A stretch of 64,000 nt of DNA, from NCBI RefSeq assembly GCF_003014535.1, contig NZ_PYGD01000001.1, positions 1,687,427-1,751,426 of the forward strand. Reading direction: 5' to 3'. This DNA is from Taibaiella chishuiensis. Lineage in GTDB: Bacteria > Bacteroidota > Bacteroidia > Chitinophagales > Chitinophagaceae. Each line of letters starts with the position of its first letter. Within the stretch, counting starts at the first letter, position 1. Below the pieces are notes generated by a model, which was not told where the DNA came from, searched no databases, and saw only the letters and a list, made by a program, of their open reading frames with translations. The translations under genes were made by a program, and so were the position numbers. Shown in pieces: positions 8,932-45,910 of this stretch.

Positions 8932-8949
8932 CTCTCTGACCATTTGGCC

Positions 8950-11499: not shown

Positions 11500-11517
11500 C
11501 CAGATAATAAACATAAA

Positions 11518-14622: not shown

Positions 14623-15795
14623 TTAAGATCCGGATAAAATGCGGGTTGTATGAACAGCTGCAAACCCGGCTGAAGTGGTCATACCCTTGCCGCCGATGCC
14701 GGTTACGATATGGATGCCGGGAGCAACCTGTTGCGTAAAGATTTCGTCCTTATGCTGGCAATAGAACCCCGTCCAGTTGCGCGCTATACGCCAGTCGTCC
14801 AGTTGTACGATTTTTTTGGCTTCTCTCAGGATAATATCGTTGATCGCCATTTCATTGTAGAATTGCCCGAGCCGGTCCTGTTCGGTAATAGGGGCGTATT
14901 CATGCGAGTCGCCGATAATGATACTGCCGTCCGTACGCTGTTTGAACAGGATATGGATACCGTAGTCCACACAATCCTGCGGTACATCAGCAGGGTCGAG
15001 CTGCTGGTAAGCTGCACAGGAGGTGAAGCTTTCGTAACGGCGTATCGTGAGACCGGTAAGGATATTGCCGGGCAGGGCCACACCGGGTTGCGGTACCGTA
15101 GACATCATGTTGAGTTTGGATACCACGAGTCCGCTCTCCGCAAATACCTCGGGGAATAACAGCTTAAAGTCCCTGCCGGAACAGATGATGCAATGTGCCG
15201 CTTCGTAAGTGTTTTTATCCGCGGTAGTTATGCGGCAACCTTCCGGGATACTGGCTACATCGATTACCGCACAGTTATTCCGGTTGCTGAACTGTGCACC
15301 GAATTTTGCAGACAGGTAGCGGAGTACGCTATGGATCATCATCTCAGGCTCTGCCGAAACTTCCTGTGGAAAGAAAAGAGCGCCTTTGCTATAGGTATCC
15401 AGTACGGCGGGGTAACGCTGTTGCACCTGCTCAGCGGTCCATAAAGCACATTCATAATCGGCTGCCGTAAACTTTTGCTGCATTTCTTCCAGCACGGCCA
15501 TTTCGCTTTCCGTATGGGCAATATAACAGGAACCCCGCTGCCGGATGCCGATCGGGAATTCGGCCTGTATCTCTTTGTACAGTTCGGTGGCGATCCTGCC
15601 ATAGGTATGCCATTCGCTGTCCGGTGCATGTCCCGAAGGTACTACCTGTCCGAAGTTCCGTACGGTGGCCTCCTGGGCTTCCCGGTCCTTCTCCAGCAAT
15701 AATACTTTTTTGCCTGCTTTCAGGCAATGGTAAGCGTGGAAGACACCGAGGGCTCCCGCGCCAACAATAATAACATCAAATTGATTCGAACGCAT
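14623..15795 (-). CDS. FAD-dependent oxidoreductase, TIGR03364 type (aminophosphonate oxidation)
   Basis: 390 aa DAO-fold flavoprotein. The N-terminus MRSNQFDVIIVGAGALG gives the dinucleotide motif G12-x-G14-x-x-G17, followed by KKVLLLEKD (second strand and FAD ribose Glu). It also has the RNFGQVVPSGHAPDS motif and a C-terminal GIGGKGMTTSAGFA segment typical of this subfamily. As I recall, TIGR03364 proteins were defined by their linkage to PhnX-like hydrolases (TIGR03351) and proposed to deaminate aminophosphonates; members (PbfC/PbfD) were later reported to oxidise 2-aminoethylphosphonate or its N-methyl derivative. A TIGR03351-like gene lies in this same locus at 26910. The gene starts 20 bp after the terminator-like hairpin of the upstream LamG gene, so expression may depend on read-through. 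Confidence 0.85.
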   Translation of the reverse strand: MRSNQFDVIIVGAGALGVFHAYHCLKAGKKVLLLEKDREAQEATVRNFGQVVPSGHAPDSEWHTYGRIATELYKEIQAEFPIGIRQRGSCYIAHTESEMAVLEEMQQKFTAADYECALWTAEQVQQRYPAVLDTYSKGALFFPQEVSAEPEMMIHSVLRYLSAKFGAQFSNRNNCAVIDVASIPEGCRITTADKNTYEAAHCIICSGRDFKLLFPEVFAESGLVVSKLNMMSTVPQPGVALPGNILTGLTIRRYESFTSCAAYQQLDPADVPQDCVDYGIHILFKQRTDGSIIIGDSHEYAPITEQDRLGQFYNEMAINDIILREAKKIVQLDDWRIARNWTGFYCQHKDEIFTQQVAPGIHIVTGIGGKGMTTSAGFAAVHTTRILSGS

Positions 15796-15806
15796 AAGGA
15801 TAAAAG

Positions 15807-15846
15807 AGAAAAAACCACAGCTGTTATGCTAAGATAACAACTGTGG
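15807..15846 (-). terminator. terminator-like hairpin between the LamG and FAD oxidoreductase genes
   Basis: Arms CCACAGCTGTTAT (15815-15827) and ATAACAACTGTGG (15834-15846) pair with one mismatch. On the minus strand the stem is followed by a TTTTTT run (complement of 15809-15814). It sits 12 bp after the stop of the LamG gene and 11 bp before the start of the oxidoreductase gene. It could separate or attenuate the two. Confidence 0.75.
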
Positions 15847-15858
15847 TAAAATTAAGAA

Positions 15859-18800
15859 CTAGTGCTGTACAACAATCTTGCGGTTGCCGCTCGATTGGCC
15901 CTGGCTCAGGCTGATGAAGTAAATACCTGAAGTCAGCTGGCTTGTGCTGATTGCGGTAGTGGCGTTCCGGGTTATTGTCTCGTAAACGATACTGCCCAGG
16001 TTATTGCGGATAATGATCGTGGTGGCTTCGCCGCTTGCGGGCAGCTGAACGGTTACCTGGTCCTGTGCAGGGTTGGGGTAGAGGCCGAAAGCAAGACTGC
16101 CGGCGGTTTTGTCGATAGCCGTAGGTTGGATGGTCCTGAAGCTATACGGGCCTTTCCAGGGGTTAATACCCACTGTGCAACTGTCCTGCAGGTAGAAGTC
16201 ATAAGCTGTATTGGCGGCCAGGTTGCTGAAGGTATAACTGGCGGCTGTAAGGTTGCTCACTGGTGTGCCGGTGCCGCGGTTAAAGCCTTCAGTACCGTAT
16301 TCCAGGTTCCAGTGACCGCTGGTGCCGGTCCAGCTTGCTTTTGCGCCGGTGCTGGTTATCTGTGTGGTGCTTACCCCCGTGGCTACATTGCAGGCCAGTG
16401 TGCTGAAGGTAAATGGTCCGGCCCATCCGCTGTTGCTCACACTCGAGTTACAATTGGTACGCACATAGAAGTCGTAGGCGGTATTGGCGCCGGCGCCGGT
16501 CAGTTCAAACCGTTTTTCGTTTACATTGGTCTGGATGCCGAATGCGGGGTTGCCAAAACCTTGTACGCCCCAGCTTACAATATAGTCCTGGGTTACCATA
16601 CCGTTGTCTACCCATTTGATCACCATGGAAGCATCGGTAATGCTGTCGGCGGTAATATTAACCGGCAGTGGGCATGGATTCAGTGTAGTAAAGGTGAATG
16701 GGCCTACCCAGGCGCTGCTGCTGGTAGCCGAGCAGGAGTCCTTGATGTAGAAGGTATAGGTCTGCGCTGCATCCAGGTTGTTCAACGTTAAGGACGCACC
16801 GGTAGCCGATACCGTAGTGCCGGTACCCGGTACAAAACCGTTATTGCCGTATTCGATGATATGGCCTGCGGCGGTAGAGGTCCAGTTGATCGTGGCTTTG
16901 CCGGTATCGATACCGGTAGTGCTGATATTGGCGGGTGTAGGACAAGCCGCAGCGCTGAAGTCGGCCAGTATATACTGTTTTACGGCTGTCGCAGGCGAAA
17001 GGCCGATGGTATTGCTTGTTGTATTATTCTGTGCCGGGGTCTGGATCCAGGTCATATCGGCATTGGAGCCACGGTTATAGATATGCAGTTGCGTATTGTT
17101 GGCAACAGCGGTAGGGTAGGCGCTGTAGTTATAGCTCATTTTGTACGCTGCATTTTTATTGCCCGGTATAAACACGCCAAAGTGATTATTGGTGCTGCCC
17201 AGCTGCACGATGCCATTGGTAAAGTTAGGCGCATTGTTGATGCGGTATACATGCATACCCAGCGCACCGGCTGCGATGCTGTCGATCGTGATCGAGCCCT
17301 GTGCGTTGCTGCCCAGGCTCAGGCTTAAGCCGGTCCAGTCGGTGGGGTAATTGTTGATACTGGTATCGCCGATAGCTGCACCGCTGATAATACGCTGCGG
17401 ATTGTTCATCAATACACCGTTGAACACTGCGCCGGAAGCCTGTGCCAGGTTGGTCAGTACATTGCCTGCGGTTTCGTCCATGCGGTAATAAGCGATCAGG
17501 TTGGTGTCGTTGCCATTTACTTTCTGGCAGATGTGCTGGCGAAGTTCATTTACAGTCAGTGCCTTGTTCCATATTTTCAGTTCGTCCATAGCGCCTTTAA
17601 ATTTAGGGCCATACACACCGGTGCCGTCCTGGCCTATACGCAGGGGCAATACGCCGTCGAGGCTCCTGCCGCTGTCTGCAGCGATATTGATCGGGGTACC
17701 GGCCTGTATGCCGTTCAGGTAGGCGGTCAGCATACCGGAGCGGTCTACTACCATTGCAATATGGTTCCAGGCCGAAGGGTCGGGTACCGTCATGTCGTAA
17801 TCGCGACGGGTACCGCCGGCGGGTTTAAAGTTGAAACGCAGGCTGTTGCCGCCGTTCCAGCACCAGAGTATACCGGTGTTCTGGCCGCTGGCCCAGTCTT
17901 TGTTGCCGATAAAGGAAGGATCGCTGGAAGGGTTATTGAACCTGATCCAGGTCTCGATCGTGAAATTGGTTTTCGCGATAGCGCCGGATAAGGAGTCGCC
18001 GAGGTTTACATGCTCATTGGCTGCCGTGCCCTGGAAGTTCATGGCATAACCGCTGCCGAAGCTGCTATAGTCCATAGCGGTGGTAAAGGAGAAAGGACCG
18101 GCCCAGGCGCTGCTGCTGTTCAGGGCGGCACAGCTATCCTGTACATAGAACCGGTAGGTGGTATTGGCAGTAAGGCCGGTAAGCGTAGTAGCTGCCGTGC
18201 TGAGGTTATGCAGGGTTGTACCGCCTGTGCCCGGTGTAAAGGCGCCGGTACCATAACTCAGGTTCCAGGTATTGGAGCCGCCGGTGGTCCAGCCCAGCGT
18301 AGCACCGTTGGCACTGATGTTCTGGGCATTGAGTGCAGTGGGTATATTACAGGTTACAGAAGGGACGAAACTGCCCATCACCAGGTCGTTGCGGCCTTTG
18401 GCAGCAGTTTTGGTCAGGGTATTGGCCGTGGTGTTTTTCAATGCGCCCCAGAGCGTCCAGGTAGAATCGGTCGAGTAACGGTTAAACAGGTCGATGCCGC
18501 CTTCGTTGCTGATGGCCGCGGGGAAATTGGTATAGTCGTAAGCCAGGGTATAACTTGCCGTATCGTTTACAGGGAAGATGCCGTAATAAACATTGTTGCT
18601 GCCGGGGTTGGGAATGCCCGCGGTTGTGTTGGGTGCGGCATTTACTTTAAAGATGTGTACACCGTACATGCTGTCGCTGATACCGCTGAGCTGGATATTG
18701 CCGTTGGCGGCAGACGTGAGGTTAAGGCTCTGCCCGGCAAATGAGGTAGCATAGAGGTTTACTGCGGCATCGCCGATCGCGGCGCCGCTTGCGATGCGGA

Positions 18801-19539
18801 CCGGAGCGCCGGCGAAACTGCCGTCAAAGAAGCCGGTCGATGCGGCAGCGCTGTTGGTCAGGGTATTGCCGGAAGTCTCATCGATGCGGTAATAGGCCAT
18901 CAGCCCGCTTTCTGCGCCACTGATCTTCTGGCACATATTGTTACGGATATCAGCTTCTGTACGGATGGTGTTCCAGATGCGTACTTCATCCATATCGCCG
19001 TCGATGGTATAGGCATTGTTACCATCTGCGCCAAGGCGCAGCGGGAAGTTGGCATGCAGCGCATAACCGGAGTCTGCAGCAATATTGATAGGCGTGCCGT
19101 TCAGCCTGCCGTTTACATAACCGGTAATGCTGCCGTTACGTTTTACGGTAATGGCAATGTGGTTCCATTTTGCATAATCCAGGGTCATGTTGTAATCCTT
19201 GCGGGTACGGCCATTGGCCCTGAAGTTGAATCGCAGGGTATTGGCAGCATACCGGCACCAAAGGAACCCGGTGTTGGCACCGCTCGCCCAGTTTTTATTC
19301 CCGATAAATACGGGGTCGGAGGCATTGCTTCTTACTTTGACCCACATTTCGATGGTAAAGTCGGATTGCGACAGCGCCTGCGACAGGGAGTCGCTTAAGT
19401 TAGCGCTGCTGGTGGCTGCGCCGGTAAAGCGGATGGCCGAACCTGCGCCTTGCGCCTGTGCCTGATCTGTGGCGGCCAGGGCTACCGTCAGGGCAAAAGA
19501 ATAGCTTATAAGCTTTTTGAGCTTATTAAAAAGTTTCAT
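15859..19539 (-). CDS. T9SS-targeted double-LamG, fibronectin type III protein
   Basis: 1226 aa. A signal peptide (ISYSFALTVALAATDQAQAQ) is followed by two LamG/concanavalin-like domains (about 32-230 and 490-700). They are clear internal duplicates sharing the motif FIGNK-W-ASG-NTG-LWC, the phrase 'TPINIAADSG' and 'LIAYYRMDET'. One FnIII-like module lies between them and three follow (about 870-1135), each with the pattern 'Y.FY..DSC......GPF.F.T'. A type A T9SS sorting domain ends the protein (FGLYPNPAQDQVTVQL ... SGIYFISLSQGQSSGNRKIVVQH). It contains no catalytic domain that I can see, so I infer a surface-attached binding protein. It lies 62 bp downstream of the alkaline-phosphatase-superfamily gene and probably binds the same substrate or polymer. 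Confidence 0.87.
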   Translation of the reverse strand: MKLFNKLKKLISYSFALTVALAATDQAQAQGAGSAIRFTGAATSSANLSDSLSQALSQSDFTIEMWVKVRSNASDPVFIGNKNWASGANTGFLWCRYAANTLRFNFRANGRTRKDYNMTLDYAKWNHIAITVKRNGSITGYVNGRLNGTPINIAADSGYALHANFPLRLGADGNNAYTIDGDMDEVRIWNTIRTEADIRNNMCQKISGAESGLMAYYRIDETSGNTLTNSAAASTGFFDGSFAGAPVRIASGAAIGDAAVNLYATSFAGQSLNLTSAANGNIQLSGISDSMYGVHIFKVNAAPNTTAGIPNPGSNNVYYGIFPVNDTASYTLAYDYTNFPAAISNEGGIDLFNRYSTDSTWTLWGALKNTTANTLTKTAAKGRNDLVMGSFVPSVTCNIPTALNAQNISANGATLGWTTGGSNTWNLSYGTGAFTPGTGGTTLHNLSTAATTLTGLTANTTYRFYVQDSCAALNSSSAWAGPFSFTTAMDYSSFGSGYAMNFQGTAANEHVNLGDSLSGAIAKTNFTIETWIRFNNPSSDPSFIGNKDWASGQNTGILWCWNGGNSLRFNFKPAGGTRRDYDMTVPDPSAWNHIAMVVDRSGMLTAYLNGIQAGTPINIAADSGRSLDGVLPLRIGQDGTGVYGPKFKGAMDELKIWNKALTVNELRQHICQKVNGNDTNLIAYYRMDETAGNVLTNLAQASGAVFNGVLMNNPQRIISGAAIGDTSINNYPTDWTGLSLSLGSNAQGSITIDSIAAGALGMHVYRINNAPNFTNGIVQLGSTNNHFGVFIPGNKNAAYKMSYNYSAYPTAVANNTQLHIYNRGSNADMTWIQTPAQNNTTSNTIGLSPATAVKQYILADFSAAACPTPANISTTGIDTGKATINWTSTAAGHIIEYGNNGFVPGTGTTVSATGASLTLNNLDAAQTYTFYIKDSCSATSSSAWVGPFTFTTLNPCPLPVNITADSITDASMVIKWVDNGMVTQDYIVSWGVQGFGNPAFGIQTNVNEKRFELTGAGANTAYDFYVRTNCNSSVSNSGWAGPFTFSTLACNVATGVSTTQITSTGAKASWTGTSGHWNLEYGTEGFNRGTGTPVSNLTAASYTFSNLAANTAYDFYLQDSCTVGINPWKGPYSFRTIQPTAIDKTAGSLAFGLYPNPAQDQVTVQLPASGEATTIIIRNNLGSIVYETITRNATTAISTSQLTSGIYFISLSQGQSSGNRKIVVQH

Positions 19540-19564
19540 TTTTTTTGTTTTTGTATTTAAGAAT

Positions 19565-19590
19565 ATTGCCTGCCCGTTAAGGCAGGCAAT
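19565..19590 (-). terminator. hairpin between the AP-superfamily and LamG genes
   Basis: A 10-bp stem (ATTGCCTGCC 19565-19574, GGCAGGCAAT 19581-19590) with a 6-nt loop, 11 bp after the stop of the AP-superfamily gene. There is no good T-run on the minus strand, so it could be an mRNA-stabilising or attenuating hairpin rather than a full terminator. Confidence 0.5.
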
Positions 19591-19601
19591 GTTTTAGCAT
19601 G

Positions 19602-20900
19602 TTAGCGTAAGACGATTTTGCGGGTGGTGCGTCTGCCGTCATGTTCTACCTGCATCAGGTAAATGCCTTTGGGCAGGCTGGTGAGGTCGAACGGTACTAC
19701 GGTCAATTCCTGGATCGCTTTTTCTTTCTTCTCGATAAATACCCTGCCGGTCATACTGATCACTTTGATGTCGATGATGCCCTGCAGTTTGTGGAAGGCT
19801 GCTTTGAATACGCCGTTGTTCGGGTTGGGGAAGATGCCGAACTGGATCGTTGCGTTGTTTACGTCTTCGATATAGGTTGGCGGATGCGTTGAGGTATCGG
19901 TTGGTACCGTATCGGTCATCAACCAGGATTTACCATCTAGGTTCCAGGCCGGGTTGGTCTCCGGGTTGCCACAGTTGCTGCCTTTCAGGATATGGGCCAA
20001 AGCCGTAACGGCGATGTCGGTCAGTACCGGCGTGCTTTTCAGCAGGGTAGTGTCCACCGGGTTGGTAGGCATATAATAGCTGCCCGGATCGGGGCCTGTA
20101 ATTTGCAGGTGGGGTACGCTTGGGCCTGCGGCTACCCACCAGATATGGCGTTCGGTATTGGACTGGCCACCATGCGTGGTGCCGATACCGCCGTGGTCGG
20201 TGGTCAGTAGGATCAGCCAGTCTTCCTGGCTGTAGGTAGGGCGTTGGTATAACTTCTGCAATACCTGGCCTACCTGGGCGTCTACATCCTGGATGGCATT
20301 CATGTATTGCGCATTGGCCGGGTTGAAGCCCGAAGAGTGGCCGGCAGCGTCGGTTTCATCATAGTGGATGAAGAGGATGTCCAGGTTGGGATCGGCCAGC
20401 TGGATCTTGGCAGCAGCAGTTACTGCGCCCTGTCCGTGCGTACCCGCATCGATCGACTGGTTAAAGCCGCTGTTAAATACGAAGCCGGCACTGTTGTTAC
20501 TGTTGGTCGGATCGTTCATAGGGTCCCAGGTAATGATCTGTACGGCCTTCAGGTTAGGAAGGCATTCCTTCGCTCTTTTCGGGAAGTAAGGATAGTTCAG
20601 GAAGTTCGGGTTCGGGTAGTTGTTATTGGTCACATGGTGCTTGGCTTCCCATACACCGGTCATCATGGAGCTCCAGGAGGCGCCGCTGGAAGTAGCGCCG
20701 CAATGCCAGGAGTCGTAGGTGTAAAGACCGTGTGCCATCAGGGTGTCTATATTGGGCGTATTGGCCTGTAATAAGGCGTCTGATCGTACACCGTCGATGC
20801 CGATAAAAAGTACTTTCGGCTTTTTTGTGGTCTGTGCCTGTACGGCTGCCGTAGCGCCAAACAGTAAGGCCCCGGTAAGGAGTAAAGCAAAAGGTTTCAT
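19602..20900 (-). CDS. secreted alkaline-phosphatase-superfamily phosphodiesterase/phosphonate hydrolase-like enzyme with T9SS tail
   Basis: 432 aa. After a signal peptide (MKPFALLLTGALLFGATAAVQAQ), residues about 28-330 form a type I phosphodiesterase/nucleotide pyrophosphatase fold. It has Asp36 in FIGIDGVRSD, the SSGASWSSMMTG block (Ser72 aligns with the Thr/Ser nucleophile), the D-x-x-GH motif in ETDAAGHSSG, TTDHGG, and a late His in NTERHIWW. These are the six metal ligands and nucleophile expected in this superfamily, which also includes phosphonoacetate hydrolase and phosphonate monoester hydrolases. A type A T9SS domain (FGIFPNPNNGVFKAAF ... KGIYLMQVEHDGRRTTRKIVLR) places it on the cell surface. 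In this neighbourhood a role in releasing a phosphonate or phosphate group from a larger molecule is likely; the exact substrate is not readable. Confidence 0.87.
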   Translation of the reverse strand: MKPFALLLTGALLFGATAAVQAQTTKKPKVLFIGIDGVRSDALLQANTPNIDTLMAHGLYTYDSWHCGATSSGASWSSMMTGVWEAKHHVTNNNYPNPNFLNYPYFPKRAKECLPNLKAVQIITWDPMNDPTNSNNSAGFVFNSGFNQSIDAGTHGQGAVTAAAKIQLADPNLDILFIHYDETDAAGHSSGFNPANAQYMNAIQDVDAQVGQVLQKLYQRPTYSQEDWLILLTTDHGGIGTTHGGQSNTERHIWWVAAGPSVPHLQITGPDPGSYYMPTNPVDTTLLKSTPVLTDIAVTALAHILKGSNCGNPETNPAWNLDGKSWLMTDTVPTDTSTHPPTYIEDVNNATIQFGIFPNPNNGVFKAAFHKLQGIIDIKVISMTGRVFIEKKEKAIQELTVVPFDLTSLPKGIYLMQVEHDGRRTTRKIVLR

Positions 20901-20916
20901 TGTATTGAGTTGTTGG

Positions 20917-21180
20917 ATTTTAGAATTGGATATGAGATGTTAGATATGAGATGTTAGACGTTAGATGTTAGATATGAGATGTTAGATGTTAGATGTTGGG
21001 TATTGGGTATTGAGCGTTGGGTATTGGGTATTGGGTATTGGGTATTGGGTATTGAGTGTTGAGTGTTGAGTCTTGCTGTTCCGTGTTGGGTATTGTGTAT
21101 TGGGTACTGTGTATTGAGTGTTAAGTGTTAAGTGTTAAGTGTTGCTGTTCCGTGTTGGGTATTGTGTATTGGGTGTGGCG
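20917..21180. repeat. degenerate heptamer tandem repeat (GTTAGAT and ATTGGGT families)
   Basis: The gap between the TonB receptor and the AP-superfamily gene consists of 7-bp units: GATGTTA/GTTAGAT units at about 20917-20996, then GGGTATT units at about 20997-21056 (five consecutive GGG runs spaced by TATT near 21019-21050), then GAGTGTT, AAGTGTT and mixed units with the phrase 'CTTGCTGTTCCGTGTTGGG' or 'GTTGCTGTTCCGTGTTGGG' occurring twice. No spacers or cas genes are present. Heptamer tracts like this are known between genes in Bacteroidota. The plus strand is G-rich. Confidence 0.85.
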
Positions 21181-21285
21181 GTTGTCATCCTGAGCGCAGC
21201 GAAGGATCTCATCCCATAGCTGGCTTTATTATAGCCGGTCCTTGCTCCTTGCTCCTTGATACTTGCTACTTGATACTACTTACTA
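21181..21285. repeat. dispersed Bacteroidota intergenic motif plus short CTTGCT repeats
   Basis: Positions 21184-21209 carry the motif GTCATCCTGAGCGCAGCG followed by AAGGATCT, which I recognise as a widespread intergenic sequence of Bacteroidota genomes. It is followed by CCTTGCTCCTTGCTCCTTG repeats at about 21239-21275, up to the stop codon of the TonB receptor gene. Confidence 0.7.
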
Positions 21286-24225
21286 TCATAGATTAAACCG
21301 GATACCGGCCAGGCCCCTGATGGAATAGTATTCCGTTTTTAATGGGCGTTCCTTGCGGCCGCGATACATGGTATAAGGCGTATTGGTCAGGTTGTTCAGT
21401 TCCACGAAGAAGCTGAAGCGTTCTTTGAAACGATAGGAAAACGAATAATCCAGGGTCATGCTGCGGCCGATATATACGTCATAGTCGTTGTCCTGGTGCA
21501 GGATCAGTGTTTGTTGCGATGCGGGATCTTTTACGGCATAGAGGTTCAGTTCGTACAGGTAGGGATCACGATAGTTCAGGCCCAGGCGGGTGGTAATTTT
21601 CCCGTTCTCGAAGAAGAGGGCTACGTTCATTACGTTCGGCGACTGGCGGGGCAACTGTTGCGGTTTGTCCCTGGCGTCGATGTTCATCCGGGAATAAGTA
21701 TGCGAATAGTTGATGCTTACACCCAGGTTCTTCATGATGCCGGGCAGGAAGCGCAGCTTGGTCATCAGCGCCGCTTCGAAACCCGCAGCCATGGCCTGCG
21801 GCGCATTCTGGAATTTTTTTGCGATCACGCCTCCCGGTATCTGGAATTCGTTGGAGATGCCGGTATTGTCGGTGCTGCTGGCTTCGAATGCCGTGTAAAT
21901 ATGGTCTTTTACGTTCTTGTAAAATACGGAGGCGCTGAACATACTGGTGGCGCCCAGGTAGCGTTCGTAAGCCAGGTCGAAGTTCCAGGAATAGGTAGGC
22001 TTAAGATCGGGATTGCCATAAAGCAGGTCGTTGTTGGAATAGTCGATTGCTGCAGCGCCGGGTTTGATCTCGTTAAAGTTAGGCCGGCGGAAAGACCTTG
22101 TAGCTGCGAAACGCAGGTTCTGCCGCTCGGTAAGCGCATACTTGACATTCAGCATCGGTAATAGCGAAAGATAAGCCTTACCTGCTCTTACATTGGTCAG
22201 GGCTACGGTACCCAATGCCGGATCTACCGTCATGATGCTGTCGGCCTTTACTTCAGGAGCTGTATATTCGGCCCTCAGGCCGGGTACGATAGTCAGGCCA
22301 GGTACAGGTTGCCACTCTGCCATGGCATAACCGGCATATACATTTTCGGTATAGCTATAACTCGATCCGACCATTTGCTGGAAGTAAGGCGTCTTTACGC
22401 CAAAGGGAATATAACGCAGCGAATCGCCGAGGTTACGGACAAAGTTGTCGGTGCCTTTTACATCGAAGAAGGGGAAGAGTTTGCCCGCATAAGGACTGCC
22501 CAGTTCCTTCAGGAACCCGCCGCGTTCATTAAAGGGCGCGGGGTTATAGTTGTTGTAGATAATAGCGGGGCTCAGGTCTTTATTGCGCTCCCAGAGTTCC
22601 AGGCCTACTTTTCGTTCCCCTTCTTTCATGCGCAGCTTACCGCCGAATTTGATCTTCAGGTTGTTGTTGATGTGGTATTGCAGGTCCAGTTGGGCTACGA
22701 TCGGGTCTTTCTCTATAGTCTGGTTCGTTTCTGAATAGGCGCGGGTAAAGGCAAACAGGCTGTCGGTAGGATTTACGAGGTGTGTATTGCGATATTGCGG
22801 TTGTATGTTTTTGTAGTTATCGCCATAACCCGGTACGGGGCTGTCGATATCAAGCAGCTTCAGGCGATCGTAGGCATTCATCTCATCGGTAACGCGGCCC
22901 TGCTCGTCGAGGTAGAGGAAATCGGTAAAGTCGACGGCCTTCTCAAATTCTACTACGTGATACCCGTTTCTTGCATCGCCTTTGCTGTAAGGCACGGCGC
23001 CATAAGCGAAGGAGTTGCGGTAGCTGGCTACCCGCCAGTTGGCAGACAGGTTCCTGCCGGCTTTAAAATCGCCGCCGAGTTCGGCGCCCCAAAAGCGCGT
23101 CTGCATGATATTATGGATGTTTTGCAGTTTGATCGATTGTCCCCAGCCGGTGCTCCAGTTATACATGGTCTTCCGGTTAAACTCGTTGTCGTTCATGCTG
23201 CCGTAAACACCTTTGGCATAGATCTTGGCATCGTCGTTGAATTTATATTCGAGCGCGCCGTTGAAGCCAAGTGTCGTTCTTTTGCCCTCGTAATCCCGGA
23301 GTTCGAGGCGGGTGAGCGACTGGTCGCGGTTACTGCCGTAAAACACCTGGTAGTTGTCAGTGGCCCAGTTGCGGCTGTATAGTGAGCCCCCGGCAAAGTA
23401 GCCGAACCTGCCGTTGCGGCTGCTGTTGCCATAAGCCAGCGATGCATTATAAACCGGTTTGGCTGCCTGTGCATTGTAACCTGCTCCCAGCGAGGCTTGC
23501 AGGGTTTTGGTAGCCGGTGCGCTCTTGGTCATGAAGTTAGCGCTGCCGCCGATAGCGTCGCCTTCCATATCGGGCGATAAGGTTTTGGAGACTACGATAT
23601 AATCCACAAGGCTGGAGGGGAAAATGTCGAAGTTCATCGCCCTGGTCTTGGACTCCTCGTCGGCAACGGGCATGCGGTCGCCGTTCACCAGGGCCGAACT
23701 CCAATCGGAAGGCGTACCCCGGAACGAGATAAAGCGGCCTTCTCCCTGGTCTGACTCCATTACTACGCCCGGCAGGCGTTGTACGGCTTCTGCAACATTG
23801 CGGTCCGGCAGTTTGGCCACACCTTCGGCCGATACGATATTGGCAAATACATTGGAAGCCTTCATCATATTCAGGGCCTTGGTTTCCGTGCCTTTCAGCT
23901 CGGCTACTACCTGTACTTCTTTTAAGGATTGTGTGTTCAGGGTAATCACGCCGAGTGACAGGTCCTGGTCCACAACGACCTGTTGCAGCAGGGTTTCATA
24001 ACCCAGCGAAGCAATCCGTAAGGTATGGGTGCCTTTGGGTATGCCGGTCAGTTCGAAGTTGCCGTCCAGGTCGGTTACGGTATTAAACGATTCGTGCTCC
24101 AGGCTTACGATAATGCCTGGTAGCGCTTCTTCCTTATCTTTAACGGTACCCCTGATCCTTAACGACTGTGCGTATAAGGCAAGGGGAAGTAAATAAACAA
24201 CTACGGTCGATAATATTTTTTTCAT
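21286..24225 (-). CDS. TonB-dependent outer-membrane receptor
   Basis: 979 aa. A signal peptide (MKKILSTVVVYLLPLALYAQ) is followed by a carboxypeptidase-regulatory-like domain (about 22-105, GTVKDKEEALPGIIVSLEHE ... LGYETLLQQVVV), a plug domain (about 120-235, LPDRNVAEAVQRLPGV, RFISFRGTPSDWSSALVNGDRMP, EGDAIGGSANF) and a 22-strand barrel ending in an aromatic-type terminus (GLAGIRFNL). The plug signature resembles the TIGR01782 (Xanthomonas/Caulobacter) group, which works without a SusD partner, and none is present here. It starts 3 bp after the stop of the small secreted protein gene, so the two are translationally linked. It faces the regulator/transporter genes divergently, suggesting import of the organophosphonate that this locus processes. 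Confidence 0.92.
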   Translation of the reverse strand: MKKILSTVVVYLLPLALYAQSLRIRGTVKDKEEALPGIIVSLEHESFNTVTDLDGNFELTGIPKGTHTLRIASLGYETLLQQVVVDQDLSLGVITLNTQSLKEVQVVAELKGTETKALNMMKASNVFANIVSAEGVAKLPDRNVAEAVQRLPGVVMESDQGEGRFISFRGTPSDWSSALVNGDRMPVADEESKTRAMNFDIFPSSLVDYIVVSKTLSPDMEGDAIGGSANFMTKSAPATKTLQASLGAGYNAQAAKPVYNASLAYGNSSRNGRFGYFAGGSLYSRNWATDNYQVFYGSNRDQSLTRLELRDYEGKRTTLGFNGALEYKFNDDAKIYAKGVYGSMNDNEFNRKTMYNWSTGWGQSIKLQNIHNIMQTRFWGAELGGDFKAGRNLSANWRVASYRNSFAYGAVPYSKGDARNGYHVVEFEKAVDFTDFLYLDEQGRVTDEMNAYDRLKLLDIDSPVPGYGDNYKNIQPQYRNTHLVNPTDSLFAFTRAYSETNQTIEKDPIVAQLDLQYHINNNLKIKFGGKLRMKEGERKVGLELWERNKDLSPAIIYNNYNPAPFNERGGFLKELGSPYAGKLFPFFDVKGTDNFVRNLGDSLRYIPFGVKTPYFQQMVGSSYSYTENVYAGYAMAEWQPVPGLTIVPGLRAEYTAPEVKADSIMTVDPALGTVALTNVRAGKAYLSLLPMLNVKYALTERQNLRFAATRSFRRPNFNEIKPGAAAIDYSNNDLLYGNPDLKPTYSWNFDLAYERYLGATSMFSASVFYKNVKDHIYTAFEASSTDNTGISNEFQIPGGVIAKKFQNAPQAMAAGFEAALMTKLRFLPGIMKNLGVSINYSHTYSRMNIDARDKPQQLPRQSPNVMNVALFFENGKITTRLGLNYRDPYLYELNLYAVKDPASQQTLILHQDNDYDVYIGRSMTLDYSFSYRFKERFSFFVELNNLTNTPYTMYRGRKERPLKTEYYSIRGLAGIRFNL

Positions 24226-24228
24226 AAA

Positions 24229-24720
24229 CTATTGCTTGCTGGATTGATGCCCGTTGCCGGGAAAATGGTGCTCATGTGCATCCTGTTCGTCATGATGTTT
24301 GGGGTCGGCGATTAGGGGACCTGGATGCAGCCGTTCGCGATCGCTGATCAGCAGGGCGGCGTCGGCCGGGGAGCGGAAATACTGGGCTACCGGTATGCTC
24401 TCGTTATAAAAGTCATCGCTGAAATAGTTTGCCTGTTCTGCCGCGTTGATGTTGTTGCAGATATCCCGGTACTCCTGCATGCATAAACGGAAAAGCGAAT
24501 CGGGGTTAGTGGTCAGGGGAGCAGGTAAACGGAATTTTTTTATTTTATATAAATTACCTGCGATCAGTAACTGGTGTTTTAAAATGTCGATACGGTAAAC
24601 GCGGGCTATACTGTCGGTAGTCGTGTGGCGGGTTTGCGCCTGGCTTTTCAGGGTAAGCAATAACAGTAAGAACAGGAGCAAAACTGCCGGCAGCAGCCGT
24701 TTTACAAAGAAAGTAGTCAT
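24229..24720 (-). CDS. small secreted protein encoded upstream of the TonB receptor
   Basis: 163 aa. The hydrophobic N-terminus (LLPAVLLLFLLLLLTLKSQAQ) is a signal peptide. The rest has no family that I recognise: a helical middle part (SLFRLCMQEYRDICNNINAAEQANYF) and a His-rich tail (HHDEQDAHEHHFPGNGH) that might bind metal. It is the first gene of the minus-strand operon. A TANNTTTG-type element (TAATTTTG on the minus strand, complement of 24743-24750) lies 22 bp upstream, with an operator-like site at 24765-24779 behind it. Confidence 0.7.
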   Translation of the reverse strand: MTTFFVKRLLPAVLLLFLLLLLTLKSQAQTRHTTTDSIARVYRIDILKHQLLIAGNLYKIKKFRLPAPLTTNPDSLFRLCMQEYRDICNNINAAEQANYFSDDFYNESIPVAQYFRSPADAALLISDRERLHPGPLIADPKHHDEQDAHEHHFPGNGHQSSKQ

Positions 24721-24742
24721 GATATCTGTTATAATGATGAGG

Positions 24743-24792
24743 CAAAATTAGAGAACAATAGTTTACAAATGCTGAACTAGTGTTTACTAAAT
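24743..24792 (-). promoter_or_regulatory. minus-strand promoter with operator-like sites
   Basis: The -7 element TAATTTTG (complement of 24743-24750) drives the receptor operon. ACAAATGCTGAACTA at 24765-24779 matches the locus motif ACAAATACTAAACAT at 12 of 15 positions and would cover the -33 region. A second degenerate copy in the other orientation (GTTTACTAAAT, 24782-24792) follows it. Promoter and site calls are inferences from motif matching. Confidence 0.55.
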
Positions 24793-24837
24793 TGTTAACT
24801 CTGGTGTTGCTTTTATATTATTTCAAACGTGGGAATG

Positions 24838-24867
24838 TTGCATTCTTGCGCAGAGGTAATATCTTTG
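24838..24867 (+). promoter_or_regulatory. Bacteroidota-type promoter of the XRE-cupin regulator
   Basis: TTG at 24838-24840, a 19-bp spacer and TATCTTTG at 24860-24867 match the -33/-7 consensus. The start point is predicted near 24870, just upstream of the operator-like site at 24874-24887, which suggests autorepression. Confidence 0.75.
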
Positions 24868-24873
24868 GCGTTT

Positions 24874-24887
24874 ATAAATACTAAACC
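24874..24887 (+). promoter_or_regulatory. operator-like site in the leader of the regulator gene
   Basis: ATAAATACTAAACC contains the full 11-bp core AAATACTAAAC found in three perfect 15-bp copies downstream. It lies between the predicted transcription start and the ATG at 24892. Confidence 0.65.
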
Positions 24888-24891
24888 CTAT

Positions 24892-25461
24892 ATGGAAGGA
24901 GCATTCCTTTTAGAAGTAAGCCGGCGCATCAAAGAGTTCCGGCTCGAAAAGCGCCTCACGGTACAGGAACTGGCCGACCGCGCCAATGTAAGCAAAGGCC
25001 TGATCTCCCAGATCGAAAATGGCCGCAGCATACCCTCGCTGCCGGTATTGTTTGGTATTATACAATCGCTGGAAATGGCGGTCAGCAGCTTCTTCGACGG
25101 CCTTAACCTGCAGGCGCCCAATGTGCTGGTGCAACGCAAAAAGGATTATGAATCTTTTACGAAAGAAGATGCGAAAGGCTTTTTATATAAACGGATCTTC
25201 GTGAAGAACGTATCGGCCTCGACGCTCGATTTCGTGATCCTGGAACTGAGTAAACAAGCCAAACGCGGCGAGGTGGTTACCGAGGCCTTCGAATACAAGT
25301 ATATTATACAGGGGCAATGCGAATACCTGATCAATGGTGAGAAATACGAATTATCCGAAGGCGATTCACTTTTCTTCGACGGCCGCCTGCCACACCTGCC
25401 CAAAAATACCGGTACCGAAAAATGTATTATGCTGATTGTTTACTTCTTCATACAGAAGTAA
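24892..25461 (+). CDS. XRE-cupin transcriptional regulator of the phosphonate locus
   Basis: 189 aa from ATG 24892, chosen because it follows the promoter and begins right before the HTH; upstream in-frame GTG/ATG codons lie before or inside the promoter. Residues about 8-65 are an XRE-type HTH (RIKEFRLEKRLTVQELADRANVSKGLISQIENGRSIPSLPVL, quoted in part). The C-terminal half (about 110-185) is a cupin sensor domain with YIIQGQCEYLINGEKYELSEGD and DGRLPHLPKN. Such proteins usually sense a small metabolite through the cupin. Its own leader, the next gene's promoter and the PhnX-like gene all carry the AAATACTAAAC motif, so it is the natural candidate to bind it. Confidence 0.9.
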   Translation: MEGAFLLEVSRRIKEFRLEKRLTVQELADRANVSKGLISQIENGRSIPSLPVLFGIIQSLEMAVSSFFDGLNLQAPNVLVQRKKDYESFTKEDAKGFLYKRIFVKNVSASTLDFVILELSKQAKRGEVVTEAFEYKYIIQGQCEYLINGEKYELSEGDSLFFDGRLPHLPKNTGTEKCIMLIVYFFIQK

Positions 25462-25476
25462 ACAAATACTAAACAT
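25462..25476 (+). promoter_or_regulatory. operator-like site upstream of the transporter promoter
   Basis: ACAAATACTAAACAT, identical to copies at 25523 and (inverted) 26854. It begins directly after the regulator stop codon (25459-25461) and lies about 40-55 bp before the predicted transporter start point. Confidence 0.7.
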
Positions 25477-25505
25477 TTATTTACATTTAGGTAATATTGG
25501 CTTGC

Positions 25506-25537
25506 TACATTTGCGCTCGATTACAAATACTAAACAT
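25506..25537 (+). promoter_or_regulatory. transporter promoter -7 element with downstream operator-like site
   Basis: TACATTTG (25506-25513) fits TANNTTTG; no good -33 TTTG stands at 19 bp, so the promoter may be weak or controlled. A second perfect ACAAATACTAAACAT (25523-25537) covers the region just after the start point and ends 7 bp before the ATG at 25545. Sites flanking the promoter on both sides fit repression by a dimer or by looping. Confidence 0.65.
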
Positions 25538-25544
25538 TAGTTTA

Positions 25545-26861
25545 ATGAGTTTTGGGCGTAAGATCGGCATCAGTGCCAATTCTTTTTTCTTCGTGGTTTT
25601 TGCCACCGTAGCTTCCTTTCTTACCTATACATCTATGTACGCGGTAAGAAAGGCCTTTACCGCCGGGACCTTTGACGGCCGGGTCTTTGCTGGTATGGAT
25701 TATAAGGTTTGGCTGGTCATTGCCCAGACCATCGGGTATACCCTGTCGAAGTGGTGGGGCATAAAGATCGTAGCCGAGAATACGCCGCGCCAACGACCCT
25801 GGTACATCCTGGGGTTGGTAACAGCGGGCATCCTGTCGTTATTGCTCTTTGCCCTGATCCCCGCGCCGTACAGTATTATCTGTCTTTTCCTGAATGGCCT
25901 GCCCATCGGTATGATCTTCGGGCTGGTGTTTAACTACCTGGAGGGGCGCCGTACCACCGAGATCCTGGTGGCAGGGCTTACCATCACTCAGATCTTTTCT
26001 TCCGGATTTGTAAAAAGCGTAGGCCGTTTCTTTATCCATGACCTGGGTGTGCCTGACCTCTGGATGCCTTTCCTGGTAGGCCTTATCTTCTTCCCGGTAC
26101 TCCTGTTGTCGGTATGGATGCTCGAACAACTGCCCGCGCAGGATAAAGCCGATATCCAGCTCAAATCCAAGCGCGGCGCTATGACGGCGCCCGAACGACG
26201 GACTTTCGTACGCAACTTCCTGGCGGGCCTTTTTATCTTTATGTTCAGTTATATACTGATGACGGCCTACCGCGACTATCGCGATAACTTTGCGGCTGAA
26301 ATATGGGAGGGGCTTGGCTTTAAGGGACATGCCGATCTTTTTACCCTTACCGAGATCCCGGTATCCGCGGTCATCCTGTTGCTCATGATCTTCCTGCAAC
26401 GCATCCGGGATAATATGAAAGCCTTCCTGTTTATACATTATATGGGTATCGCGGGCGCGGCCATCCTGTTGCTGGCTACCTGCTGTTATGCGGCGGGCTG
26501 GATCAGCCCGGTGCTATGGATCAGCGCAACCGGCGTAGGGCTTTATATTGCGTATGTGCCGGCCAATACTATCTTTTTCGAAAGAATGATTGCTGTGTTC
26601 AAATACCCGGGCAACGCGGGTTTCATCGTTGTGATGGCCGACTTCTATGGTTATAGCGGCAGCCTGGGTGTATTGCTTTATAAAAGTTTCGGTAAGCAAA
26701 GCCTGAGTTATAGCAGCTTCTTTCTCTATGCCTCTTTCGCGGTCGGCTTGATGCTCCTGCTGGCCCAGGTGGGCTCCTGCATTTACTTTTCCCTGAAAAA
26801 TAAAAAACAACAGGCCCATACAGCAACACCGGTTGCCCGTTTGGAAATGTCTGATGTTTAG
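25545..26861 (+). CDS. DUF5690 family MFS-like inner-membrane transporter
   Basis: 438 aa from ATG 25545; an upstream TTG would place the start before the promoter. About twelve hydrophobic segments are visible (for example FFFVVFATVASFLTYTSM, YILGLVTAGILSLLLFALI, GLFIFMFSYILMTAY, AAILLLATCCYAAGWI, AVGLMLLLAQVGSCIYF). The opening 'SFLTYTSMYAVRKAFTAGTF' and the internal AYRDYRDNFA segment are typical of the DUF5690 family, a branch of the major facilitator superfamily. It lies between the regulator and the PhnX-like hydrolase under the shared operator motif. I infer that it imports the phosphonate substrate across the inner membrane, a role not established for this family as far as I know. Confidence 0.85.
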   Translation: MSFGRKIGISANSFFFVVFATVASFLTYTSMYAVRKAFTAGTFDGRVFAGMDYKVWLVIAQTIGYTLSKWWGIKIVAENTPRQRPWYILGLVTAGILSLLLFALIPAPYSIICLFLNGLPIGMIFGLVFNYLEGRRTTEILVAGLTITQIFSSGFVKSVGRFFIHDLGVPDLWMPFLVGLIFFPVLLLSVWMLEQLPAQDKADIQLKSKRGAMTAPERRTFVRNFLAGLFIFMFSYILMTAYRDYRDNFAAEIWEGLGFKGHADLFTLTEIPVSAVILLLMIFLQRIRDNMKAFLFIHYMGIAGAAILLLATCCYAAGWISPVLWISATGVGLYIAYVPANTIFFERMIAVFKYPGNAGFIVVMADFYGYSGSLGVLLYKSFGKQSLSYSSFFLYASFAVGLMLLLAQVGSCIYFSLKNKKQQAHTATPVARLEMSDV

Positions 26862-26868
26862 TATTTGT
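26854..26868 (-). promoter_or_regulatory. operator-like site before the PhnX-like hydrolase
   Basis: ATGTTTAGTATTTGT is the exact reverse complement of the 15-bp motif at 25462 and 25523. It overlaps the transporter stop codon (26859-26861) and lies 41 bp before the hydrolase ATG. A weak TTTG (26874-26877) and TAAAATTT (26895-26902) follow. Confidence 0.65.
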
Positions 26869-26909
26869 ATATTTTTGTTTAATTTTGTAAAAAATAAAAT
26901 TTCCTATAA

Positions 26910-27611
26910 ATGCTGACAGATTCTATTAAGCTTGTCATTTTCGACATGGCAGGTACCACTGTTTACGATGATCATTATGTTTCGGAGGTGCTGTGTGCAT
27001 CGCTTGCCCTGCACGGTTATACGGTGCCCCGCGAAGCGGCCGACGAAGTAATGGGTATTGCGAAACCCGTTGCGATCAGGACCTTGCTCAACCAGTTTTA
27101 CCCGGCTGCAACCGGTGTGTCCATCGAGCCTATTCACCAGGACTTCCTGCGGCTGATGATCGAATTTTATGCAAACGCTGAGGATATACGCGAGATCGAA
27201 GGTTCCTCGGTGGTGTTCCGCGAGCTGCGCAGGCAAGGTATAAAGGTGGGTATCGATACCGGCTTCAGCCGCGATATCACCGATATTATCATGAACCGCC
27301 TGGGCTGGCAGGAAGAAGGCCTGGTAGATGTGAGCGTGGCCAGCGATGAGGTTGCCCATGGCCGCCCCGCGCCGGATATGGTCTATAGAGCCATGGAGCT
27401 TACTGGTATCACCGATGTGAAATCGGTAATGAAGGTGGGCGATACACCGGTCGATATTATGGAAGGCAATAATGCCGGTTGCGGTATGGTTGTGGGCGTA
27501 TTGAGCGGTATCGGCACACCCGTCGAGCTTAAAGAAGCCGGCGAAGCCTTACTGGTCGACTCGATCTCCGATATCACGGCCATACTGGATAAAACAGTAG
27601 TGTATAACTAA
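26910..27611 (+). CDS. phosphonatase-like HAD hydrolase (TIGR03351 type)
   Basis: 233 aa HAD-superfamily enzyme with a C1 cap. Nucleophile Asp12 stands in IFDMAGTTV, the motif shared with phosphonoacetaldehyde hydrolase (FDWAGTT). Motif II is in VGIDTGFSRD, a Lys/Arg follows in MNRLGWQEEGLVD, and motif IV is KVGDTPVDIMEGNNAGC. Lys52 in MGIAKPVAIRTLL falls where phosphonatase carries its Schiff-base Lys. The expected reaction is hydrolysis of the C-P bond of a phosphono-aldehyde made by the FAD oxidoreductase at 14623. A role on a hydroxylated analogue rather than phosphonoacetaldehyde itself is possible. It is 48 bp from the transporter gene with its own operator-like site. Confidence 0.88.
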   Translation: MLTDSIKLVIFDMAGTTVYDDHYVSEVLCASLALHGYTVPREAADEVMGIAKPVAIRTLLNQFYPAATGVSIEPIHQDFLRLMIEFYANAEDIREIEGSSVVFRELRRQGIKVGIDTGFSRDITDIIMNRLGWQEEGLVDVSVASDEVAHGRPAPDMVYRAMELTGITDVKSVMKVGDTPVDIMEGNNAGCGMVVGVLSGIGTPVELKEAGEALLVDSISDITAILDKTVVYN

Positions 27612-27629: not shown

Positions 27630-27672
27630 AAAGGTCCCGTTGGTGTCATGCCGGCGGGGCTTTATTTTTTTA
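27630..27672. terminator. terminator between the hydrolase and GNAT genes
   Basis: A stem with G-U pairs (AAAGGTCCCGTTGG / CCGGCGGGGCTTT) followed by TATTTTTT on the plus strand, with A residues on the left for the minus-strand GNAT gene. It lies between the two convergent stops and overlaps the GNAT 3' end. Confidence 0.65.
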
Positions 27673-28204
27673 AGTCCAGCCAGGTATCGCGGTCGATCCG
27701 GTACCAATGGTGTAGCGCTGTTTCGTGCATAAAGCTGCCGTCCTGAACCAGGCCGCATTTCTTCAGCACTTTGTCCGAACCCGTGTTGGCAGCATCTGCC
27801 ATGGCATATACGGTATCGGGTTTCAGGGTGCTGAATCCATGATCGAGCGTGGCTTGTGCTGCCTCGGTAGCCACGCCTTTGCCCCAGTAAGCGCGCAACA
27901 AGCGGTACCCCAGGTCGTAATAATGGCTATGCCCGTTTACGGTATCGCGTATCAGTTTGAGTCCTGCCCAGCCGGCGAAGTTGCCGGTGGCCTTTTCGAT
28001 AATGACCAGGCGCCCGGTACCCAGGTCGCGGTATTGTTGCTGGAGGAACAGGATCATATCACGTGCCTCCTCTTTGCGGTGTTGTGGTTTATTGCCCACA
28101 TAACGTACGACTTCAGGATCGGAGTCGAGGGCAAAGAAGCCATCGGTATCGGTGATGAGGGCGGGCCTGATCAACAGGCGCGGGGTTTCGATTTCGTAGG
28201 GCAT
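27662..28204 (-). CDS. GNAT N-acetyltransferase (RimJ/RimL type)
   Basis: 180 aa from the ATG at 28204, which starts MPYEIETPRLLIRPA, the standard opening of this family; a longer frame adds 15 unrelated residues. Conserved parts are TPRLLIR, FALDSDPEVVRYVG, FAGWAGLKLI, and the acetyl-CoA loop in LLRAYWGKGVATEA. The end reads NTGSDKVLKKCGLVQDG, matching 'N..S..v..K.GF'. The acceptor is unknown; ribosomal-protein or small-molecule amines are the family's usual substrates. Confidence 0.88.
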   Translation of the reverse strand: MPYEIETPRLLIRPALITDTDGFFALDSDPEVVRYVGNKPQHRKEEARDMILFLQQQYRDLGTGRLVIIEKATGNFAGWAGLKLIRDTVNGHSHYYDLGYRLLRAYWGKGVATEAAQATLDHGFSTLKPDTVYAMADAANTGSDKVLKKCGLVQDGSFMHETALHHWYRIDRDTWLDLKK

Positions 28205-28319
28205 GAGGATGGTTTCGACGAAAGTACATGATTCCGTTAAAGCCGCCACGGATCACTGCCCGGAAAAAAAATCGGGTTACCCTGTAACTTTTTTATTCCG
28301 GCCCCGATATACTGTTGTT

Positions 28320-45765: not shown

Positions 45766-45770
45766 CAGAA

Positions 45771-45798: not shown

Positions 45799-45835
45799 TT
45801 CCAAAATACGGAACTGATTTTTGCAGTTCTACAAT

Positions 45836-45908: not shown

Positions 45909-45910
45909 CA

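Follow-up and report, generated by a model that had tools for sequence, protein, structure and literature searches.

Described systems and the Taibaiella chishuiensis locus

Phosphonates such as 2-aminoethylphosphonate (AEP) are largely made for cell-surface decoration, in lipids and glycans (PMC6697681, PMC8316502), and the AEP pathways described in the excerpts of the articles cited here begin with free AEP. We analysed a locus of Taibaiella chishuiensis, positions 14623-27611 of a window of 64,000 nucleotides (contig NZ_PYGD01000001.1, 1,687,427 to 1,751,426), in which two divergent operons share the spacer 24721-24891. The leftward operon holds, in order, a 163-aa gene and the genes of a TonB receptor, an NPP-like esterase, a LamG/FnIII protein and a TIGR03364 flavoenzyme, and the rightward operon runs from an XRE-cupin regulator through DUF5690 to a PhnX-like HAD hydrolase. 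The locus is probably one regulon to acquire and mineralise an aminophosphonate that is ester-linked to some larger molecule. We infer both the natural substrate, a phosphonolipid or phosphonoglycan, and every activity of the window proteins.

A PbfD-type oxidase and a PhnX-type hydrolase are likewise combined, in a genome without PhnW, in the PbfD2-PhnX route of Mariniblastus fucicola (Zangelmi et al. 2023, PMC10590968). For this route the excerpt of that article describes neither a TonB receptor or DUF5690 protein nor a surface esterase with a LamG protein, and the window HAD, unlike its PhnX, is TIGR03351-like and falls below the PhnX cut-off. In Flavobacterium, outer-membrane receptor genes likewise adjoin those of organophosphorus enzymes, and according to the excerpt all six PusCD complexes co-localise with phosphomonoesterases, phosphodiesterases and 'phosphonate-degrading enzymes' (PMC8115612). 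PusCD are of SusCD type and induced by low phosphate, whereas the window has a lone TIGR01782 receptor, cargo of the type IX secretion system (T9SS) and an XRE-cupin regulator. AepP, the 2AEP permease of Pseudomonas putida, is a carrier of the major facilitator superfamily (MFS) for an aminophosphonate, encoded beside phnWAY or phnWX genes; it is a recognisable GlpT relative (27.75%, PMC8316502), whereas DUF5690 shares the fold class only, without a significant sequence match. The window esterase resembles Xanthomonas NPP and ENPP4-7 in its fold, its metal-ligand pattern and Ser72 at the place of the nucleophile, and differs from the NPPs in its T9SS tail, its LamG partner or fusion and the Ser that replaces Thr.

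In Maribacter forsetii, the SusCD pair P177_RS04595/04600 has an alkaline phosphatase, a FAD oxidoreductase and a phosphonatase-like hydrolase as neighbours (PMC11345257). This pair is of SusCD type and is discussed as a laminarin transporter in the excerpt, and we liken it to the window by gene descriptions, not by sequences; the pair could be a phosphonate locus. The original prediction knew of no description of a complete T9SS/TonB phosphonate system, which was too strong a claim of novelty in view of the excerpts on Flavobacterium (PMC8115612) and Maribacter (PMC11345257). No T9SS or TonB phosphonate system appeared in the titles and abstract openings of the open-licence PMC literature, among the matches listed. 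New here are the occurrence of DUF5690 across pathways, the fusions of LamG with esterases and a shared operator-like motif, and the assignment of DUF5690 is the most valuable testable claim.

Cytoplasmic enzymes

In the excerpt of Zangelmi et al. (PMC10590968), PbfD1 of Acinetobacter baumannii belongs to the TIGR03364 family, and PbfD1 and PbfD2, the latter from an organism without PhnW, were shown to convert N-methyl-AEP and AEP to phosphonoacetaldehyde. The window flavoenzyme lies 69 bits above the TIGR03364 cut-off and its gene shares the locus with that of a PhnX-type hydrolase; by analogy, it is predicted to be an N-methyl-AEP/AEP oxidase giving phosphonoacetaldehyde. The original prediction had placed both cytoplasmic enzymes in families of aminophosphonate degradation and had named their best-scoring families as a check; both score best to phosphonate families. 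This half of the proposal is firmer than was known then, with TIGR03364/PbfD chemistry shown for relatives in the same excerpt (PMC10590968).

For the HAD, TIGR03351 is the best family by about 100 bits, TIGR01422 comes next, and the closest solved structures are those of PhnX. The protein keeps the nucleophile Asp12, the Schiff-base lysine Lys52 and the motif-4 pair Asp178/Asp182, which, like Arg152, are each present in 67 of the 67 aligned HADs (window included; 200-300 aa, over 60 bits, with L129-L132 left out; fetched loci are labelled L). The Lys52 column has Lys in chain 2iof and Arg in chain 2ioh, which we take to be the Lys53 mutant of PhnX. An inactive protein of the PcrP/PA2803 kind, described in the excerpt as lacking catalytic residues (PMC12632274), is ruled out, since the window protein keeps them.

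Genome-wide, no PhnW, PepM, HD oxygenase or PhnJ was found over cut-off, in a search that did not extend to PhnA, PhnY, PbfA and canonical PhnX. The canonical PhnW route is ruled out by a best match of 42.4 bits against a cut-off of 400.8, a C-P lyase system by the failure to find PhnJ in the genome, and a biosynthetic locus by the same result for PepM. It is also very hard to believe that the locus has nothing to do with phosphonates and belongs to amine or phosphoester metabolism, with a PuuR-like XRE-cupin protein, an amine oxidase of the DAO family and a HAD phosphatase. The regulator is indeed weakly PuuR-like (45.4 bits, cut-off 211) and DAO oxidases are broad, but the TIGR03364 score, the Schiff-base lysine in every aligned HAD and the neighbours of DUF5690 elsewhere (PhnW, PhnX, PhnY, PhnA and PbfA) all speak for phosphonates.

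DUF5690 as a candidate permease

DUF5690 (PF18943) is entered in Pfam without a function, and 5.39 million open-licence PMC papers, when searched, gave no mention of it. Of 395 genomes of the phylum, 42 have it; TIGR03364 is matched at E<=1e-60 in 33, and 30 of these have DUF5690 too (uncorrected for relatedness). Among the 75 loci that hold both the DUF5690 and the flavoenzyme gene, 66 have the two on one strand and at most 400 bp apart. We fetched 20 further DUF5690 loci, all away from TIGR03364, the neighbours of most being scanned only partly, and five of them hold phosphonate enzymes over curated cut-offs. These are PhnX and PhnW in L162; PhnA, PhnY and PhnW in L171, with an XRE gene, and in L157, with relatives of SusD, of the HD oxygenase and of AP360 (a 360-aa esterase relative); and PbfA in L168 and L173. 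DUF5690 also stands with PbfA over the curated cut-off in L127, whose flavoenzyme is that of genome G410, and in L164 near a PbfA-like gene found by BLAST only (46%). Counts of PbfA are BLAST-based and may include other class-III aminotransferases, and the family model confirmed it only in L127, L168 and L173. In L134 and L103, GlpT/PgtP-like carriers occupy the place where DUF5690 is missing.

The DUF5690 model (pLDDT 91.6) has its nearest PDB fold in G6PT/SLC37A4, which takes ranks 1-4 (TM-score 0.63-0.64); GlpT (1pw4) stands at rank 30 (0.64), and sialin, SPNS2 and other MFS folds have similar scores. In hhalign comparisons, Arg51, invariant in our DUF5690 alignment (the window and 43 of 73 DUF5690 hits), pairs with an invariant Arg of GlpT-like carriers, which is suggestive only. 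Because it accompanies PhnW with PhnX, PhnW with PhnY and PhnA, and PbfA, and because its predicted fold is nearest to G6PT, DUF5690 is probably an aminophosphonate permease. We infer its role in inner-membrane transport mainly from association. An AEP permease of antiporter fold has a precedent in AepP of P. putida, which the excerpt describes as a GlpT-like 2AEP permease (PMC8316502).

Surface proteins and receptor

Searched against solved structures, the esterase profile finds Xanthomonas NPP at 1.3e-18, as well as ENPP4-7. With PF01663 over cut-off and the metal-ligand columns conserved, the esterase belongs to the NPP branch of the alkaline phosphatase (AP) superfamily. Asp36, Ser72, Asp184, His188, Asp235, His236 and His243 are conserved at 90% or more in a 31-row alignment (the window and 30 others), and in a 29-row realignment (the window and 28 others) only Asp36 and His236 still are; the rows were selected from 48 esterase hits. 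The ligand roles of these residues are presumed ones. Ser72 pairs with the NPP nucleophile position, Thr in chain 2gsn and Ala in 7mw8, in an ungapped profile alignment; a separate HMMER alignment had a gap near it. Sulfatases and phosphonate monoester hydrolases of the formylglycine type carry the motif C/S-x-P-x-R, and membership in this type is ruled out for the window esterase, whose S72-G-A-S-W has Trp at the required Arg. Its AlphaFold model (pLDDT 83.9) finds AP-superfamily folds in the PDB and matches sulfatases, phosphonate monoester hydrolases and NPPs equally, so that the predicted fold leaves the substrate unfixed.

The LamG of the window protein matches a LamG segment fused into the esterases of L116 (95.1 bits) and L110 (103 bits), and the alignment revealed that the L113 and L155 esterases also carry it. 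In all four the insertion follows the last metal-ligand region and precedes the C-terminal W-x-LDG motif. LamG and esterase are thus fused in one lineage and neighbours in another, which speaks for their acting together; the LamG/FnIII protein is the predicted substrate-binding partner of the esterase. Both surface proteins have a C-terminal type A sorting domain (TIGR04183/PF18962 over cut-off), their signal peptides were judged by eye, and the T9SS core protein SprA is present in the genome (2499.7 bits, cut-off 200); judged by these features, both qualify as predicted T9SS cargo. Relatives with at least 40% identity to the esterase were found at 19 loci, and ten of these have HAD, FAD, DUF5690 or XRE genes beside them. 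In four metagenome-assembled genomes (MAGs; L141, L142, L145 and L146), an esterase relative adjoins an AP360-like gene on the opposite strand, and no phosphonate genes were seen nearby.

The TonB receptor scores 48.9 to the SusC model TIGR04056 (cut-off 368.25), and there is no SusC-SusD pair at the locus, SusD being absent among the nine proteins scanned. A homologue of the 163-aa gene stands at the same place in L089, L091, L092, L129-L132 and L135, and none was called in L087; thus five of the six genomes that share the full gene set described below have it. The His-rich 163-aa protein is perhaps a metal handler for the metal-dependent esterase.

Conservation and variants

All seven main genes recur in the same arrangement in six further genomes, namely L087 of the same genus, Edaphocola flava (L129/L091+L098), E. 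aurantiacus (L130/L089+L097), Taibaiella sp. KBW10 (L132/L092+L099) and the MAGs L131 and L135. By size and order of open reading frames (ORFs), the outer neighbours in these genomes differ from those of the window; the two Edaphocola share one flank, and L131 and L135 are alike on one side. Recurrence of the same seven genes with flanks that differ from the window's indicates that the grouping is not due to chance, and conservation of the set in relatives, which had been named beforehand as a check, is thereby confirmed.

In a sample of 195 genomes of the window's family, Chitinophagaceae, 66 have TIGR03364 above its cut-off, and two others of the window's genus have none above it. Besides the window we fetched 65 same-family loci, 51 as full 20-kb stretches and 14 as shorter ones, in which the usual order is XRE, SusC, SusD, AP360, HD oxygenase, HAD, DUF5690 and FAD. 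Counted by BLAST (1e-10, over at least 35% of a reference), DUF5690 is present in 58, HAD in 44, an outer-membrane receptor in 51, a secreted esterase in 54 and all four in 36; these numbers are low because of the 14 short stretches, and 30 of the 51 full ones have the four together. SusC or SusD occurs in 44 loci, AP360 in 43, the HD oxygenase in 42 and XRE in 19 (an alternative clustering count gave HAD 43, HD 41 and XRE 18), and the window-type TonB receptor and the window-type esterase in five each. By hhalign, AP360 and the window esterase are distantly related (98.6%); a sequence search of AP360 against solved structures was uninformative. The HD oxygenase of L070 reaches 212.3 bits to TIGR03276 (cut-off 214.6). 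Judged by gene content, phosphonate loci of this kind more commonly take a SusCD form, of which the window holds a TonB/T9SS variant.

Across the phylum, 32 of the 395 genomes are over the TIGR03364 cut-off, and the 33rd, G410, is just below it at 278.5 bits. The 25 loci from other families have DUF5690 in 17 (20 with GlpT/PgtP-like carriers), HAD in 18, a receptor in 15 and an esterase in 18, with receptor, esterase, transporter and HAD together in 11. At four loci a phosphocholine-specific phospholipase C (PC-PLC, TIGR03396) is encoded close to the flavoenzyme (Table 1), which fits a lipid (phosphonolipid) source without proving one.

The composition of these loci bears on an alternative in which a phosphonate module acting on free AEP is limited to the flavoenzyme, HAD, DUF5690 and XRE, while the genes of the TonB receptor, the esterase and the LamG protein happen to lie next to it as a set for general organophosphate or nucleotide scavenging. 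We consider this unlikely. It would account for the esterase relatives of L141-L146 with no phosphonate genes nearby, for the equal match of the esterase fold to three enzyme types, and for the core being commoner without the TonB and AP genes of the window type. However, TonB, esterase and core genes co-occur in the loci of the window type and in L067, L110, L113, L116, L137 and L138, other loci place different receptors and esterases at the same spot (SusCD with AP360, or PC-PLC), and the operator-like motif described below is in both spacers.

Taibaiella soli and T. lutea keep the TonB, esterase, LamG and HAD genes and show no FAD or DUF5690 gene within the 21 kb fetched; both loci encode an alcohol dehydrogenase resembling TIGR03366 (316.7 and 306.1 bits, cut-off 328.1), and that of T. 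soli also a PgtP/GlpT-like carrier. In L137, TonB, esterase, LamG and FAD genes stand with a TIGR03366 dehydrogenase over cut-off (332.8 bits). These variants suggest that the surface module may serve more than one head group. They also lend something to a second alternative, in which the flavoenzyme would act on a related amine and the locus would serve a different phosphonate (2-hydroxyethylphosphonate, for example, or hydroxy-AEP derivatives), since a surface module of this kind may free different head groups. We know of no proven substrate for TIGR03366, which takes weight from this argument. The window, moreover, retains PbfD, a family in which the characterised enzymes use AEP and N-methyl-AEP according to the excerpt (PMC10590968), and we hold this alternative to be quite improbable.

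Several observations weigh against a dedicated route for ester-bound aminophosphonates. The HAD is slightly below the cut-off of TIGR03351 (216.5 bits, cut-off 218.9) and far below that of the PhnX equivalog TIGR01422 (113.9, cut-off 220), and it has Ala55, as do 59 of the 67 HADs in that column, where PhnX has His56, presumably a residue of the cap with a role in PhnX; for these reasons we describe it as no more than PhnX-like. DUF5690 is not exclusive to such loci, and the family is matched in Caulobacter vibrioides too. The remaining further DUF5690 loci show no phosphonate enzymes among the neighbours scanned, which means either that the family is broader than phosphonates or that the scan was incomplete. 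Sialin, SPNS2, GLUT1 and PiPT score near G6PT, so the predicted fold of DUF5690 leaves its substrate unfixed; the DUF5690 profile finds no PDB chain at E<=10, and its hhalign comparison with four GlpT-like carriers is not significant (probability 14%, E 0.002). Nine of the 19 loci with an esterase at least 40% identical show none of the core genes, three of them on contigs under 12 kb. Finally, Bacteroidota commonly have TonB receptors, SusCD and LamG proteins, and the counts were made without a random-locus control.

Operator-like motif

The motif ACAAATRCTNAAC-N4-DTTTA, whose core resembles the inverted repeat TAAAC-N4-GTTTA, occurs in the window in three exact copies, where shuffles predict 0.08 with up to 2 mismatches allowed. 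A longer form of the site in the divergent spacer is matched exactly in seven other distinct genomes (14 of 175 loci, some of which were fetched twice), and sites 2 and 3 are recognisable in all seven genomes compared, window included (ten sequences). One further exact copy in the genome, with a weaker right half (L184:9735-9756), precedes the gene of an unrelated 1577-aa BNR/T9SS surface protein. Ahead of the more distant XRE genes that were checked (at most 62% identity), no such motif was seen. At up to 2 mismatches it is no commoner genome-wide than the reversed control (9 vs 9); that exact copies are rare is judged from the shuffles of the window and from the four exact hits. Since the motif was derived from these same sites, the information lies in how rare it is elsewhere and how well it is conserved. 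The three exact copies, spread over the two spacers, would tie both operons together.

Coordinates and neighbouring genes

The feature coordinates are collected in Table 1. Every gene named in the original prediction was found by family-model scans of the window proteins, and the 163-aa gene is an addition to its list. The starts of the regulator and of DUF5690 were chosen from those of relatives, not as mechanical ORF starts; orthologues of the XRE-cupin protein, 85-90% identical, begin at the ATG equivalent to 24892. The hairpin after the HAD gene is likely the end of the rightward operon, judging from its place; hairpins with a T-run are, as a class, not above chance (16 vs 16.2 in shuffles). 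A scan for sigma-70 promoters was uninformative (15 found vs 15.5 in shuffles).

Table 1. Coordinates of the features described in the text, in the window unless a fetched locus is named.
Feature	Position	Strand	Evidence
PbfD-type FAD oxidoreductase	14623..15795	-	TIGR03364 354.2 bits (cut-off 285.1); PF01266 148.4
Terminator- or attenuator-like hairpin between LamG and FAD genes	15814..15847	-	14 pairs and T-run
Secreted LamG (x2)/FnIII (x3) protein, T9SS type A tail	15859..19539	-	Laminin_G_3, fn3, Por_Secre_tail 51.0 bits (cut-off 27)
Secreted NPP-like alkaline-phosphatase-superfamily esterase, T9SS type A tail	19602..20900	-	PF01663 70.4 (cut-off 23); Por_Secre_tail 40.1 (cut-off 27)
TonB-dependent receptor with carboxypeptidase-regulatory domain	21286..24225	-	TIGR01782 424 bits (cut-off 310)
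163-aa protein, apparent signal peptide, His-rich C-terminus	24229..24720	-	matches no family
Operator-like site 1, divergent spacer	24765..24786	+	exact ACAAATRCTNAAC-N4-DTTTA
XRE-cupin regulator	24892..25461 (ORF from 24829)	+	HTH_3 and Cupin_2
Operator-like site 2, immediately 3' of regulator stop codon	25462..25483	+	exact motif
Operator-like site 3, abuts likely DUF5690 start codon	25523..25544	+	exact motif
DUF5690, predicted inner-membrane aminophosphonate permease	25545..26861 (ORF from 25497)	+	PF18943 479.5 bits (cut-off 25)
PhnX-like HAD hydrolase, predicted phosphonoacetaldehyde hydrolase	26910..27611	+	TIGR03351 216.5 bits (cut-off 218.9)
Hairpin directly 3' of HAD gene	27631..27663	+	15 pairs and T-run
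Esterase with LamG insertion	L110:11663-13345		
Esterase with LamG insertion	L113:6749-8434		
Esterase with LamG insertion	L116:6547-8400		
Esterase with LamG insertion	L155:9989-11986		
PC-PLC directly beside flavoenzyme	L075:6967-9300		TIGR03396 727.8 bits (cut-off 580)
PC-PLC directly beside flavoenzyme	L104:6677-9277		TIGR03396 821.3 bits
PC-PLC directly beside flavoenzyme	L034:10952-13522		TIGR03396 784.4 bits
PC-PLC three genes from flavoenzyme	L040:15438-17999		TIGR03396 812.3 bits

The GNAT gene at 27662-28249 is ruled out as a member of the locus, since it does not adjoin the HAD gene in L087, L097 and L099. Elsewhere in the window, two tandem genes for large secreted proteins at 8944-13623 have 'FTPNGDG'/'FSPNGDG' tails (T9SS type B-like by eye), 28689-31976 encodes a 1095-aa protein resembling Sel1-type repeats (by eye), and 45693-45909 holds a tandem pair of tRNA-Phe genes with identical anticodon.

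Proposed mechanism and implications

In the mechanism we propose, the T9SS would export the NPP-like esterase and the LamG/FnIII protein, the latter would hold a polymer or lipid, and the esterase would hydrolyse a P-O-R ester, freeing AEP, N-methyl-AEP or a close analogue. The TonB receptor, to judge from its place and recurrence, would carry the product over the outer membrane, and DUF5690, with an MFS fold nearest to organophosphate:phosphate antiporters and mainly on the strength of association, over the inner membrane. The PbfD oxidase would deaminate it to phosphonoacetaldehyde, a reaction shown for other family members, and the PhnX-like HAD, given its residues, would form a Schiff base via Lys52 and cleave the C-P bond to give acetaldehyde and phosphate. 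The XRE-cupin protein may bind the three operator-like sites in the two spacers and so control both operons, probably in response to the substrate. The surface-to-cytoplasm model of the original prediction stands in this outline; the roles it gave to the TonB receptor, DUF5690 and the surface enzyme gain support from recurrence, from other phosphonate pathways, from the LamG-esterase fusions and from the shared motif.

The full form of this proposal, for which we see the chances as evenly divided, is that DUF5690 would be a new aminophosphonate permease family in at least four Bacteroidota phosphonate pathways, joined here to a complete front end displayed by the T9SS. In it an NPP-like esterase, guided by LamG, would free aminophosphonate from prey or litter, where phosphonolipids or phosphonoglycans would carry it, and would feed a dedicated TonB receptor under one XRE-cupin regulator. 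For Bacteroidota, the locus offers a concrete route, open to testing, by which bound phosphonate could yield phosphate, and names DUF5690 as the candidate importer, that is, the missing step. Some SusCD or TonB genes that have been assigned to glycans may serve phosphonates instead.

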